Source of the DNA: Caldilineales bacterium
GTDB lineage: Bacteria > Chloroflexota > Anaerolineae > J102
Assembly (NCBI GenBank): GCA_019695115.1
Contig: JAIBAP010000049.1
Coordinates: 1-46,418, forward strand
Direction of reading: 5' to 3'
DNA: 46,418 nt
Shown here piece after piece: positions 201 through 4,987 of the stretch. Each line of letters begins with the position of its first letter. The first letter of the stretch is position 1. The notes beneath the pieces are model-generated. The model was not told where the DNA came from, did no database searches, and saw only the letters and a list, made by a program, of their open reading frames with translations. The translations under genes and the position numbers were made by a program.

Positions 201-1955
201 TCACGTCAATCGATTCTTCTTCCGCCCATACATCTCCTGCTGGTTTTTGGCCGCCCGCGCTTGCAGTTCTTCGCCTTCGACATGCCCCATCTGCCGGTAG
301 AATTCGGCGTCGTAGGGCCGGGTCTTGATCACCACCGGCATGGGCACGGCATGGCCCAGGATCAGGGCCTGCTCGCGGGAATCCAGCCGGGCCAGCACCT
401 CGCGCAACTCCTGCCCCCCGCTGACCCCCATGAACACCGCCCGGATGTCTTCCTCGTTGTCCAGGGCCAGGGTGACGCGCGTGCCCACCTGCGACATCAC
501 TTCGGGGTCGATGCCGCTGGGCCGCTGGTCGACGATCAGCAGGGTGACGTTGTATTTGCGCAGCTCGCGGGCGATGACGCCGAAAATGGTGTCGGCGGCG
601 ATCTCCGGCTCCAGGAACTTGTGCGCTTCCTCGATCGTGATCACCAATGGTCGCGGGCCTTTGTTCTTGTCGCCGAACGCCTTTTCCTTCATCTCGACAT
701 ATTGCCGGTGAACGCGCCGGGTGAGGAAATTGGCCATCAGCAGGTAGGCCCCCAGGTCGCTGCCGTAGCGCCCGAACTCCAGCACCACACTGACGCCCGA
801 TTGCAGATACTCAAGGATGCGGCCCACCGAATCCTCCACCGCCTTGTCGGTGATGAAACTGTAGCGCCAGAAGCGCTCGAACTTGCGCCGCAGCGCCGCC
901 AGGGTCTGCTGGGGCTGGCCCAGGTCTTCGGCCAGCGCCTTCAGCCCCGAAACCGATTCGTCGGCGCTGAGATAGGCATCGACCCACTCATCGGTCATGA
1001 AATCGCCCAGCCACGTCTTGCCCAGCCGCCGGCGCATGGCATACATGGCCCCCACCTGCGCCTCCGAAAGATGCAGCACCCCGGCCAACATCTCCAAGTC
1101 TTCGGGATCGATGTGCTCGTAGCCGATGGCGACGGTGAAATCAGGGTTGGAGCCGCGACGCTGGCTGGATTCGTCATCCAGGGTGAAAATCGTCACTTTG
1201 CCGGGGAAGATTTGTTTCAGGCCTTTCACGTGTTGTGTGGCGCCCTCGGATGACCCCTCCCAACCGTACTCGTTGTGCATGTCGAAGATCAGGTTGACCG
1301 CGGCATCGTTCTGGATGATCCCGGCCAGCAGCAGCCGGCTGAGGAAGGTCTTGCCTGTGCCCGACTTGCCGAACACCGCCGACGAGCGTTCGACGAAGCG
1401 CTCGAGGTTGAGCGTGATCTTGACGTTCTCCATGTCCAGCGGCTCGCCGACATGGAAGAAGTGCACCGTGCGGTCGTTTTCGTCCTTGCCCTCGCCCTCG
1501 GCGCCAAAGATGATGCCCACCTCTTCGGCCGTGGCGGTGGCGACAGCGGCATAGTGGCTGGGGATGGTCTTGACCGGGCGGGGAACGTTGTCGTCCGCGT
1601 CCAACACCAGCAAGGGCGAGACATGGGCGCGGCCGAAGGTGCTGGTGCCCTGGTAGACCTGGCGGATGAAGTCGTTGCGCAGGTCGGGCGGGGTTTTCTC
1701 GAAGGCGGGGTTGGTGCTGTCGAGGGCGATGTCGGTGATCATGCCGAAGAACAGCCGGCCGCCGCCGTGGATGACCACATAGCGGCCCACGGCCAGTTCT
1801 TCCAGCGGCTGGTCGCGGTCGATCTGCACCTCCAGCCCGCTGCTGAGCGACCCGGCCACCACCTGGCCCAGGCGATTGGCGGCGTCGGTCGGGGCGGCCT
1901 CGGCGCGAAGAGACTCGAAGAAGGCGTCGGGGTGGGAGAAATCGGGGTCGTTCAT
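201..1955 (-). CDS. herA: HerA-like DNA translocase/helicase (HAS-barrel plus RecA-like ATPase)
   Basis: This 584-residue protein is a hexameric FtsK/HerA-family ATPase that, with the nuclease NurA, processes DNA ends. An N-terminal HAS-barrel (about residues 27-120) is followed by the ATPase core. Walker A is GKSGTGKT at 196-203, the Walker B strand LVITIEEAH is at about 437-445, and the stretch after RELRKYN (ending DQRPSGID, to about 483) fits the sensor/arginine region of the family. The start ATG overlaps the stop of the upstream DUF2442 gene in an ATGA, implying coupled translation. NurA lies upstream on the same strand, separated from herA by the inserted 2.0-3.1 kb material. The first 26 codons exist a second time at 2505-2585. 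HerA homologues also occur in anti-phage systems, so a defence role is possible. The family call is firm; the pairing with NurA is from context. Confidence 0.93.
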   Translation of the reverse strand: MNDPDFSHPDAFFESLRAEAAPTDAANRLGQVVAGSLSSGLEVQIDRDQPLEELAVGRYVVIHGGGRLFFGMITDIALDSTNPAFEKTPPDLRNDFIRQVYQGTSTFGRAHVSPLLVLDADDNVPRPVKTIPSHYAAVATATAEEVGIIFGAEGEGKDENDRTVHFFHVGEPLDMENVKITLNLERFVERSSAVFGKSGTGKTFLSRLLLAGIIQNDAAVNLIFDMHNEYGWEGSSEGATQHVKGLKQIFPGKVTIFTLDDESSQRRGSNPDFTVAIGYEHIDPEDLEMLAGVLHLSEAQVGAMYAMRRRLGKTWLGDFMTDEWVDAYLSADESVSGLKALAEDLGQPQQTLAALRRKFERFWRYSFITDKAVEDSVGRILEYLQSGVSVVLEFGRYGSDLGAYLLMANFLTRRVHRQYVEMKEKAFGDKNKGPRPLVITIEEAHKFLEPEIAADTIFGVIARELRKYNVTLLIVDQRPSGIDPEVMSQVGTRVTLALDNEEDIRAVFMGVSGGQELREVLARLDSREQALILGHAVPMPVVIKTRPYDAEFYRQMGHVEGEELQARAAKNQQEMYGRKKNRLT

Positions 1956-2233
1956 GCCGTGACCATCACCTCTGCCCCGACTCCTGCGGCGCCTGGGGCA
2001 GGCAGTCCGCGCAACAAGCCTTCAACGCTCAAATCCTCATCGATCTCTGGCCAATGAATGCCAAAGCCGCCACCAGCGACTTGCCAGATGGATCGTTGGT
2101 GCGGTGTAGCATGTAGTAGCCGCGGATACCATGCGAGCGGCACAATAATCGTGCGCCCATCTAGTAACTCAACGCGCAGCATGTCCTTTGTGCAACGGAC
2201 ATTTACAACTCTTTCACCTGGATGTACGTCCAT
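1952..2233 (-). CDS. DUF2442 domain protein (putative antitoxin partner)
   Basis: This 93-residue protein matches DUF2442. The diagnostic features are LDGRTIIVPLAWYPRL at about residues 29-44 and HWPEIDEDLSVEGLL at about 60-74. DUF2442 genes are commonly paired with DUF4160 genes and the pairs are predicted to act as toxin-antitoxin modules, but the biochemistry is not established. The DUF4160 partner lies immediately upstream, and its ancestral C-terminus would overlap the start of this gene. The last 20 or so residues are Gly/Ala/Pro-rich and lie outside the usual domain. The gene ends in a 4-nt overlap with herA, so it is now the promoter-proximal gene of a DUF2442-herA unit. Confidence 0.8.
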   Translation of the reverse strand: MDVHPGERVVNVRCTKDMLRVELLDGRTIIVPLAWYPRLLHATPHQRSIWQVAGGGFGIHWPEIDEDLSVEGLLRGLPAPGAAGVGAEVMVTA

Positions 2234-2462
2234 ATTCCTTGTACCACCTTTCCAGTAGTTCAGCTTATTGCTGGCTGATTATTCTTTCTATCCTGCGTAG
2301 TTCATTTCCGCTGAAGCCCAAGTTTCTGGCAAGGGCAACCGGGTTGAGCCAAAATTTGGCCGATAGCTCCTCGCGATCGACATGGACGTGAGGCGGCTCG
2401 CCAGCAAGATCGTGGCTGTAGAAATAGAAGCGATAAGGGCCAACGCGCAACACAGTGGGCAT
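2214..2462 (-). pseudogene. DUF4160 protein interrupted by an in-frame TAA
   Basis: The open part (2265-2462) encodes 65 residues with the DUF4160 signature: YRFYFYSHD at about 11-19, EPPHVHVDREE at 22-32, and AKFWLNPVALARNLGFSG at 35-52. It stops at a TAA after ISQQ. Reading the same frame past the TAA gives AELLERWYKEYGRTSR and then TGA at 2214-2216. That tail is the C-terminal helix expected for this family and brings the length to the normal ~82 residues. The gene is therefore broken by one nonsense codon, or it uses readthrough. The ancestral stop would overlap the first codons of DUF2442 (ATG at 2233), a typical coupled pair. A role as the toxin half is predicted for such pairs but not proven. 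Confidence 0.75.
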
Positions 2463-2504: not shown

Positions 2505-2585
2505 TCAGCGATTGGCGGCGTCGGTTGGGGCGGCCTCGGCGCGAAGGGATTCGAAGAAGGCGTCGGGATGGGAGAAATCGTGCAT
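2505..2585 (-). pseudogene. duplicated 5' end of herA (26-codon remnant)
   Basis: An ATG at 2585 opens 26 codons ending in TGA at 2505-2507. The peptide runs M-H-D-F-S-H-P-D and on to D-A-A-N-R. From the fourth herA residue onward it is identical to the HerA N-terminus encoded at 1872-1955. Within the shared codons I count four nucleotide differences (CAT/CAC, GAA/GAG, TCC/TCT, CCA/CCG), all synonymous. Similarity stops at codon AAT-CGC, after which this copy has TGA where herA continues CTG-GGC. It is a direct repeat that brackets the DUF4160/DUF2442 pair. It is probably non-functional now. Confidence 0.85.
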
Positions 2586-2588
2586 TTG

Positions 2589-2617
2589 TTGACAGTCAAG
2601 TATTAACGAGTTATACT
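2589..2617 (+). promoter_or_regulatory. consensus sigma-70 promoter (TTGACA-17-TATACT)
   Basis: TTGACA at 2589-2594 and TATACT at 2612-2617 are separated by exactly 17 bp. This is one of the best vegetative promoter matches in the window. It points to the plus strand, away from all neighbouring genes, and would start a transcript near 2624. The 140-bp surround is distinctly more AT-rich than its neighbours. Confidence 0.75.
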
Positions 2618-2623
2618 ATGCTT

Positions 2624-2720
2624 GAAAATAAACCAGTACGTCTGGTTTTCCCCGTCCCCGACGACAAGGTGGCCAGGTGAGGCCGCCTTCTCTCGCAAAG
2701 AGAGATAGTCGGGGATGTTT
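2624..2720 (+). ncRNA. candidate structured RNA next to a DUF3800 gene
   Basis: Downstream of the consensus promoter the sequence folds into nested hairpins. A 7-bp hairpin is formed by 2630-2636 with 2642-2648. An outer 8-bp stem TCCCCGAC (2655-2662) pairs perfectly with GTCGGGGA (2708-2715). It encloses two helices: a 9-bp one (2666-2674 with 2681-2689, one G-U pair) and a 5-6 bp one (2690-2694 with 2700-2704, loop GCAAA). The last stem is followed by a U-rich TGTTTTATT, which may end transcription. No open reading frame of note lies in it. The RNA converges on the DUF3800 gene, whose stop is at 2728. Families of RNA motifs found beside DUF3800 genes have been reported from comparative genomics (from memory). 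Membership here is an inference; a decayed transposon end is the main alternative. Confidence 0.6.
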
Positions 2721-2727
2721 TATTGCA

Positions 2728-3117
2728 TCAGAGGGTTGGTTGCCAGAGATCGACAACTTCCTTCGCTGGAGTGCGCATGGCAAGCCCGCAAATCGCCTCG
2801 ACCATGAAATGCTGGCTTGACATGCGCCGCCATCGCTGGCCGATGTAGGTCTTGTCGAAAACAGCTACACGAGCTATAAACTCGACCTGGCTCATGGCGG
2901 CAAAGAACGACCGCTTCTGTAAACTCGTCAGGCGATGAAACTTGAACTCGAAGGTCTCTCGCAAATGCAGCTTCTGGCGTAACGCTTTCATTTCGGGAAG
3001 AGGGGAGCGCTCAGGCAACCGAACCAACGCCAACACAAAATGGCTCGATGCCCCGTTGGCTACGTCAAAGCCTGGATCACCTGACTCGTCCAAGAAATAG
3101 TAGCGTCTCAAAGTCAC
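2728..3117 (-). CDS. DUF3800 domain protein, C-terminally truncated
   Basis: From a GTG at 3117 this encodes about 130 residues. The hallmark N-terminal strand YYFLDESGDPGF at about 5-16 holds the conserved Asp-Glu/Asp acidic cluster, followed by SSHFVLALVRL. DUF3800 proteins have an RNase H-like acidic motif pattern and are usually 200 residues or more. They are frequent in mobile and defence contexts and their function is unknown. The C-terminal half, including the second acidic motif, is absent: the frame ends after EVVDLWQPTL, only a few bases beyond the candidate RNA. It is probably decayed. It lies 16 bp after the HAS-barrel gene. An ATG-initiated longer frame exists, but it overlaps that gene and is rejected. 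Confidence 0.7.
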   Translation of the reverse strand: MTLRRYYFLDESGDPGFDVANGASSHFVLALVRLPERSPLPEMKALRQKLHLRETFEFKFHRLTSLQKRSFFAAMSQVEFIARVAVFDKTYIGQRWRRMSSQHFMVEAICGLAMRTPAKEVVDLWQPTL

Positions 3118-3133: not shown

Positions 3134-3727
3134 TTACGCCAACCGGCGCAAGATGGCATCCAACCGCGGCAAATCCGCTGCCAGCAGCCGCGCCAGCTCG
3201 CGCCCGGCCCGGAGGAGAAAGGCGGTGTCTCGGCCCGGAAGCTGGCTCTCGGCCGCCCGGCGCAGGCCGGCCGCCAGCAGTTCTTCGGTCGGGCAGTGGG
3301 CGCTGTTGAGCACAGTGTGAAAATAGCTGAACGGCTCGCCCAAAACCTGCTGCCGTTCGACATCGCTGCAGCCATAGATGGGCTGCAAGGCGCCGGGCGG
3401 GCGCGGTGGGATGCGCTGGTAGATAAGCCCCTCCTGCTGGCAGGCGATGGCCAGGGCGCTGATCTCGACCGGCACCTGACGGCGTTGGCGCATGTCTTCG
3501 ATGCGTTCGGGTTGCAGTTCGGCCGAGGCGGCGACAATCTGGCGGACGAAGGGATCGTCCTCGATCAGAACTTCGTACACCAGCCCATACACCACCGCTC
3601 CACCGGCCTCGGCCCGCACCAATTCGCCAAAGGCGGGCAGGGCGGGCGTGTTTTCGGTGGCGCCGAAGGTGAAGGTGCTGGTGCTACTGCGCAGGGTGCG
3701 GCCCAGGAAGCCGGGGGGTTCGTTCAT
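3134..3727 (-). CDS. HAS-barrel-like protein of the HerA-NurA operon
   Basis: This 197-residue soluble protein begins with GFLGRTLRSSTSTFTFGAT and a small beta-rich domain (residues 5-75). The domain includes LVRAEAGGAVVYGLVYEVLIEDDP, which resembles the HAS-barrel fold at the N-terminus of HerA. The remainder (80-197) is helical, with no catalytic motif that I recognise. It lies between nurA and the insertion before herA, 60 bp after nurA, on the same strand. I infer an adaptor that helps HerA-NurA assembly. The fold assignment is by eye and moderate; the gene itself is well supported by its length and operon position. Confidence 0.65.
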   Translation of the reverse strand: MNEPPGFLGRTLRSSTSTFTFGATENTPALPAFGELVRAEAGGAVVYGLVYEVLIEDDPFVRQIVAASAELQPERIEDMRQRRQVPVEISALAIACQQEGLIYQRIPPRPPGALQPIYGCSDVERQQVLGEPFSYFHTVLNSAHCPTEELLAAGLRRAAESQLPGRDTAFLLRAGRELARLLAADLPRLDAILRRLA

Positions 3728-3787: not shown

Positions 3788-4987
3788 CTATTTGTGTTTT
3801 GCCAATTTTTGTTTCAAAAAGGCTTTTTGCGATGATTCTGGCAACATGCCGTTGCGCATCATGGCGATGGATAGCATGTGCTCGAAATCCTGGCGTTCGC
3901 CGAATGAGACCAGGGCCAGTTCGTGGGCGCGGGCCAGGACATAAGGATACTCGGTCCCTTCGCAGTCGCGGTAGACGGCCTGCTGCACCTGGTCGAGCCA
4001 GTCGGGTCGGGCGGTGAGCCAGTTGGGGGCGTCGATACGGACGATGCGCGCTTCGTCTGACCCTGGCTTGCGGGCCACGTTCAGGTAGAAAAAGTGGATT
4101 TCCTGGCCGGCGGTGTTCAGGTCATCGCGATTCACCTTAGCCGTGCTACTGAAGATGGCCGAGCGTTCGTTGGGCGCCAGGAAATCGAACAACAGGCGGT
4201 CGGTCAGGCCCTGATAGCGGTGATTGCGCAACCGCTCCTTCTTGATCTCGCGCAGTTCCAACTGCGCCACGTCGAGCATGCGCAAGACGCTGGCCAGATG
4301 CGAACGATCGACATAGCCGATGGGGGCGACGCCGCTGGTCTCGAGCGCCCGCAGGTCGTCGATGTAGTCTCTGATCCGCTGCCGCACCTCGGCATCCATC
4401 TCCTTCTCGCCCAGCCAGATCAGCAGCGGCCCATCGCTCAGCGCCACCACCAGCCGGTCGAGGTCGCCGCCCCAAAAGGATCGCTCCTCTCTGGCCTGGC
4501 GCACCATCTCCTTCATCTCGGCCGTCTCGCGGGCTGCGTTCACCACCCGATTGTCCACCAGCTCTTTGCCATCGTCGTAGATGTCCTCGTGGCGATAGAA
4601 CACGGACGGGCGTGTGCTGGTGAGGGGGGCCTCGCCGCTGCCCTGGCGGAGGACGATGGCGCCGGTATTGATCAGATAGTAGATGGCCAGGCCGTGCCGG
4701 TCGGGATAGATCTGTGAGCCATCGACGCCGATCAAGCTGGCATCGACGGGCGGGGCTTCCGGCTGATGGCGTTCGTCCAGCCGGGCGCTGATGGGCAGCG
4801 CCCCGCGCCAACTCAGGTCCTCTTTGGCCGCTCGGTCGATCTTGTCAAGCAAAGCATCATCGACGATGGCGAATTCGGCCAATTTCTGCCGGGCTTCTGC
4901 GGCCCGCGCGCCAAGTTCTTGTTGACGCCCCGCCATGTCCCGGCTCATCGTCTCGACTTCATCCATCAATTTGCGCAGTTCGAGCAT
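3788..4987 (-). CDS. nurA: NurA nuclease domain protein
   Basis: This 399-residue nuclease is the partner of HerA. NurA resects 5' strands of DNA ends with metal-dependent exo- and endonuclease activity inside the HerA ring. After an N-terminal helical region, the motifs appear in order. GVDGSQIYPDRH at 87-98 holds the first metal-binding Asp (D89). LSDGPLLIWL at 183-192 and GYVDRSH at 224-230 follow. The C-terminal signature is YPYVLARAHELAL at about 347-359. The start ATG at 4987 has no good Shine-Dalgarno sequence. Thirteen bases upstream lies one copy of the 130-bp repeated element (5001-5129), which therefore supplies the leader and perhaps the promoter of the operon. About 60 bp of heptamer repeats separate it from the next gene. 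Confidence 0.9.
   Translation of the reverse strand: MLELRKLMDEVETMSRDMAGRQQELGARAAEARQKLAEFAIVDDALLDKIDRAAKEDLSWRGALPISARLDERHQPEAPPVDASLIGVDGSQIYPDRHGLAIYYLINTGAIVLRQGSGEAPLTSTRPSVFYRHEDIYDDGKELVDNRVVNAARETAEMKEMVRQAREERSFWGGDLDRLVVALSDGPLLIWLGEKEMDAEVRQRIRDYIDDLRALETSGVAPIGYVDRSHLASVLRMLDVAQLELREIKKERLRNHRYQGLTDRLLFDFLAPNERSAIFSSTAKVNRDDLNTAGQEIHFFYLNVARKPGSDEARIVRIDAPNWLTARPDWLDQVQQAVYRDCEGTEYPYVLARAHELALVSFGERQDFEHMLSIAMMRNGMLPESSQKAFLKQKLAKHK

Follow-up and report, generated by a model that had tools for sequence, protein, structure and literature searches.

A stretch of 46,418 nucleotides from a Caldilineales bacterium (contig JAIBAP010000049.1, called the window throughout) contains an operon for HerA and NurA, and within this operon a candidate small-RNA gene meets a DUF3800 gene tail to tail. 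The locus raises the questions of what the RNA is, whether it belongs to the DUF3800 protein, and how the two came to lie in this operon. An earlier note, made from the sequence, had proposed a TTGACA-17-TATACT promoter on the plus strand, followed by a hairpin, an outer stem around two helices, a U-rich end, and an RNA end close to the DUF3800 stop codon on the other strand. All of these elements were recovered. The promoter agrees with the consensus at 11 of 12 positions and is the top of three promoter-like sites in 3.5 kb, where 1.0 was expected. Folding yielded the outer stem arms TCCCCGAC and GTCGGGGA, which enclose two helices, the 3′ end reads GTTTTA, and the opposing stop codon (2728-2730) lies 5 nt past the RNA 3′ end.

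A covariance search against the Rfam DUF3800 families, as the note had recommended, assigned positions 2652-2722 of the plus strand to RF02968 (DUF3800-IX) with 47.7 bits at a gathering cut-off of 36.8, covering model positions 1-67 of 67 (E 2.7e-7, computed for the whole window). The small-RNA gene is a real member of this known family, and the genome has four copies of the RNA. The 7-bp 5′ hairpin lies outside the 67-position model; read on the minus strand, it precedes a T-rich tract and might serve as the terminator of the opposing DUF3800 gene. Positions 2652-2721 also weakly resemble the DUF1874 RNA family (20.2 bits, cut-off 42), which likewise is laid out as one outer stem with two hairpins, and identity with that family was rejected because the score is below its cut-off. 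The features of the locus are collected in Table 1.

Table 1. Features of the RNA-DUF3800 locus and the surrounding operon (window coordinates).
Feature	Position	Strand	Evidence
herA	201..1955	-	PF01935
Second insertion, DUF4160 (2265-2462) + DUF2442 (1952-2233), overlapping present herA start	1952..2462	-	ORFs and profile search
Remnant of original herA start (ATGCACGATTTC...)	2508..2585	-	Comparison with relatives, duplication at 1872-1944
Sigma70-type promoter of RNA gene, TTGACA (2589-2594) / 17 nt / TATACT (2612-2617)	2589..2617	+	11/12 consensus match
5′ hairpin AAACCAG-TACGT-CTGGTTT, 7 bp	2630..2648	+	Folding; stem seen across copies
DUF3800-IX RNA core: outer stem, two inner hairpins, U-rich 3′ end	2652..2722	+	RF02968 match and covariation
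DUF3800 gene, internally deleted	2728..3117 (start GTG 3117 or TTG 3111)	-	PF12686 profile positions 1-75 of 149
HAS-barrel gene, upstream in operon	3134..3727	-	Match under Pfam cut-off
nurA	3788..4987	-	PF09376

The fold was analyzed in two sets of copies. In 14 Chloroflexota copies, the alignment of which was not fitted to the RNA model, 80% of the cells of the three helices were paired, compared with 63% in shuffled and at most 52% in slid controls. In 102 copies, mostly from Chloroflexota with some from other phyla, the alignment was fitted to the model and was therefore biased towards the structure; here 84.8% of the cells were paired versus 65.7% after shuffling. Compensatory changes, the lack of which the earlier note would have counted against the RNA, were abundant, with 490 cells altered on both sides of a pair versus 166 in the shuffled control. 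In columns 2-16 of the outer stem (summed by hand from the table) G-U cells numbered 68 and A-C cells 7, and this large excess of G-U identifies the plus strand as the folding strand. A promoter with at least 9 of 12 matches was present upstream of the RNA in 71% of the copies versus 3% of random genomic stretches, and one with at least 10 of 12 in 55% versus 0%. The 5′ hairpin, of variable sequence, lies immediately 5′ of the core in most class-level copies; a stem of at least 6 bp was found in 76% of 68 such copies versus 13% after shuffling, with 39 distinct arm sequences. The RNA copies also share conserved unpaired bases.

The arrangement seen in the window was found to be conserved. At 50 of 100 loci, which contain a few near-identical records, a DUF3800 gene was convergent with the RNA, and the position of the gene's stop codon relative to the 3′ end of the RNA ranged from -18 to +37 nt; an adjacent DUF3800 gene in any other orientation was not seen among the 100 loci. 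Paired copies were also present in records of Actinomycetota, Acidobacteriota, Nitrospira and Alphaproteobacteria. A pattern scan of the genome contigs gave, among the matches listed, mostly loci without a match to the RNA model, and thus its yield is no figure of prevalence. Among 41 intact pairs, the distances between the RNAs were correlated with those between the proteins (Mantel r 0.82, 0 of 5000 permutations), which shows joint travel, not contact, because linkage alone could produce such a correlation. The homology between paired copies extended only from about -70 (the promoter) to about +630 (the DUF3800 start), i.e., over about 770 bp, and that of solo copies only from about -70 to the RNA end (promoter and RNA, about 140 bp). 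Reading by eye, the DUF3800 start was often near the stop codon of the upstream gene or overlapped it. Some RNAs converge on unrelated genes, namely glyoxalase, arginase, nuoL, DUF3368, DUF2442 and Eco57I genes, and therefore the RNA is not strictly linked to DUF3800. At one further locus (L035), which lacks a DUF3800 gene in the vicinity, the RNA is convergent with a DUF1828 gene at a distance of 27 nt.

The conserved positions of the RNA-paired DUF3800 proteins include D6, D10, E55, D126 and D168. The structure of one of them, from a Brevundimonas relative (L164), was predicted with a pLDDT of 87.5, and its best structural match was an archaeal RNase HII (Foldseek E 4e-5; VIA-align Z 13.4, 156 residues, rmsd 2.6). 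The RNA-paired DUF3800 proteins are thus predicted to be RNase HII-like. Sequence searches of NCBIfam and the PDB with DUF3800 gave no match, and PADLOC gave none for the window protein and weak matches to PDC-M04A, PDC-S51 and DUF3800_VII for its relatives; a viral scan for relatives of L142 confirmed none. The window gene has lost about 73-80 codons internally, the last conserved acidic motif included: the N-terminal approximately 115 residues are joined to the terminal residues VDLWQPTL, S158, Q165 and D168 are absent, and the protein lacks the full PF12686 domain with all conserved acidic motifs. Because of the loss of these three residues it is probably inactive. Only the RNA gene in the window looks intact, with promoter and fold kept, while the enzyme gene looks decayed.

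These results can be read as a mobile RNA-nuclease module, with the RNA as a partner dedicated to the nuclease, and this reading was favored, at slightly less than an even chance, over an antitoxin, a cassette marker and a terminator. A separately transcribed small RNA would consist of the DUF3800-IX core and the 5′ hairpin. It would be part of a compact cassette in which the RNA and its promoter are combined with a convergent DUF3800 gene encoding an RNase HII-like nuclease; this gene would end on the U-tract of the RNA and start just after, or overlapping, the stop codon of the upstream gene. The pair would enter operons between genes as a single unit of about 0.77 kb, and further units would then pile up in tandem. 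The RNA would bind or restrain its cognate nuclease, and the pair would maintain or spread itself. In the window, the internal deletion has removed the last conserved acidic motif of the nuclease, and the RNA gene has retained its promoter and fold. Counting against this reading are the RNAs that face unrelated genes, and the fact that neither a transposase nor a target-site rule was found.

Several of the same observations would also be expected of an RNA antitoxin that neutralizes a toxic DUF3800 nuclease, either through base pairing to the overlapping 3′ end of the mRNA or by binding the protein, with solo RNAs protecting against incoming pairs. The overlap at the stop codons, the RNA's own promoter, its small size and the co-segregation would fit this role, as would the intact RNA beside a decayed nuclease and the DUF3368, DUF2442 or Phd-type genes in other units. 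However, a single convergent RNA copy is unlike the organization of type III systems, and housekeeping genes, too, are found opposite this RNA type. An antitoxin was regarded as rather unlikely.

How the module might have reached the HerA operon was addressed by comparison with relatives. The HAS-barrel gene and herA are separated by 15-173 nt in 12 same-family genomes and by 1182 nt in the window. The proposal of the earlier note that the pair had landed between nurA and herA was correct with respect to the operon; the actual neighbors of the pair are the HAS-barrel gene and herA, so that nurA does not border on it. Immediately behind the promoter of the RNA, at a distance of 3 nt from the -35 box, is the old herA start (ATGCACGATTTC). 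The 5′ end of herA is duplicated (2508-2580 versus 1872-1944, 94.5% identity over 73 nt), and the present herA start overlaps the end of the DUF2442 gene. The DUF4160-DUF2442 pair is a second insertion, which brought a second herA 5′ end along. A 7-bp repeat flanking the window unit, CGATTTC, was considered as a target-site duplication; it is probably due to chance, because its left copy is part of herA in relatives. The homology between copies stops at the promoter and the DUF3800 start, the window unit contains no transposase, and no transposon end was recognized in these comparisons with copies and relatives. No target-site rule was found for cassette insertion.

Cassettes recur at certain operon junctions: nine loci were at argB-argD, seven at the 3′ side of nuoL and four beside herA. 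At HAS-herA the window and a second locus (L249) hold different RNA types, each nearer to copies elsewhere, which suggests separate insertions. An RNA subtype of about 101-103 nt, in which the first hairpin is enlarged, was observed at the argB-argD junction (L273, L275, L276, L285, L286, L290 and L292). Tandem arrays also occur. Two loci (L252 and L290) have two DUF3800-RNA units each, and a third (L270, G443:C409) has three gene-RNA units, in which the RNAs lie at the stop codons of three different small genes (two DUF3368 genes and one that is retropepsin-like by eye). At the nuoL 3′ end, three promoter-hairpin-RNA units without DUF3800 follow each other with a period of 145 nt (L274:2706-3064). 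The occurrence is patchy: within the class, 33 of 396 genomes have the element, and among the other same-family genomes listed only G303 carries it. An empty site was sought for two copies. The glyoxalase gene of the glyoxalase-type copy is closely shared only by G000 and G303, and the flanks of one solo copy (L268) are a mosaic with dispersed repeats. One such repeat of about 97 nt (L268 positions 1984-2080), unrelated to the RNA, is present in G368 in more than 10 copies that are up to 100% identical. The patchy distribution, the co-segregation and the cassette arrays support the mobile two-part element that the earlier note had suspected; the window pair itself is incomplete, since its protein lacks the last conserved acidic motif.

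The arrays also bear on a role as an integron-like cassette marker, in which the RNA unit at the 3′ end of mobile cassettes would guide or template insertion together with DUF3800, and solo RNAs would be non-autonomous. Tandem gene-RNA units at one site, solo RNA arrays with the 145-nt period and the recurrent operon junctions would be in line with such a marker, and the promoter-RNA unit is all that solo and paired copies have in common. Yet the outer stem is freely variable and no conserved core sites were seen, the conserved promoter indicates an RNA product, and one orthologous site (L264 versus L299) fits a simple loss of DUF3800. A cassette marker was considered improbable. A broader version was given an equally low rating: an RNA-marked gene-cassette system, in which a gene with a convergent RNA at its stop codon would be gained and lost at fixed operon junctions, and the RNase HII-like DUF3800 protein with its RNA would be the moving or protecting machine.

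The fate of the RNA without DUF3800 was followed in two orthologous pairs of loci, L042/L044 and L005/L251. In the first pair, whose DUF3800 gene is broken or missing, the RNA was 86% and the 5′ hairpin 88% identical, versus 42% for the promoter region, 34-60% downstream and 72-80% at a greater distance upstream. In the second pair (L005/L251) the identity was 94% for the RNA, 74% for the promoter region, 78% for the 50 nt past the RNA and 88-100% for the wider flanks. L291 versus L296 was left out because DUF3800 is intact there, which makes it irrelevant to retention of the RNA alone, and L273/L285 was dropped. The comparison suggests that the RNA is conserved in its own right after the loss of DUF3800; a terminator role could also account for this conservation. 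A locus retained chiefly as a bidirectional terminator between genes, with an RNA without function in trans, was considered very improbable. The 5′ hairpin and the T-rich tract behind it on the minus strand, the stem with U-run on the plus strand, the position at stop codons and the retention after DUF3800 loss would fit such a role. A conserved promoter and conserved unpaired bases would be superfluous for it, and the location inside operons argues against it.

Several questions have become testable, i.e., binding of the RNA by the nuclease, toxicity in the absence of the RNA, and mobility of the unit, because the tail-to-tail overlap is fixed, the promoter is dedicated, RNA and gene co-segregate, the predicted fold is RNase HII-like, and both intact and naturally decayed pairs are available.

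The RNA family is already known; the DUF3800-IX motif was reportedly described in an earlier paper, and parts of the cassette arrangement may have been reported already. No assigned function for DUF3800-associated RNAs was found in the literature searched. The window RNA agrees with RF02968 in scoring above gathering, in all 67 positions, in the same three helices with covariation and in the adjoining DUF3800 gene. Compared with the model, the class-level copies add a covarying 5′ hairpin, a promoter and the fixed convergent overlap with the gene, and the window differs in its internally deleted DUF3800 partner. Retrons of type VII have a DUF3800 effector and share with the present pair the combination of a DUF3800 protein with a structured RNA; no reverse transcriptase is encoded at the locus, and contigs 71 and 92 were the only ones in the genome with RVT_1, which contig 49 lacks. 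The RNA of type III toxin-antitoxin systems consists of tandem repeats upstream of the toxin gene, whereas the window RNA is single, convergent and downstream of the gene. In integron gene cassettes, every gene has a folded element at its stop codon, and the cassettes form tandem arrays with toxin-antitoxin-like genes; these features are shared. In contrast, the DUF3800-IX element possesses a promoter and folds as RNA, and conserved core sites as in integron cassettes were not seen, the outer stem sequences differing between copies. Some DUF3800 (PF12686) nucleases are linked to Cas12a2, and an association with ncRNA has been noted (PMC10910872). They have in common with the proteins described here the RNase H-type fold and the ncRNA association, whereas the latter are stand-alone proteins of about 205 aa, next to which neither a CRISPR array nor a TPR domain was seen. 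According to Foldseek and VIA-align, the nearest solved fold of the RNA-paired DUF3800 proteins is that of RNase HII.
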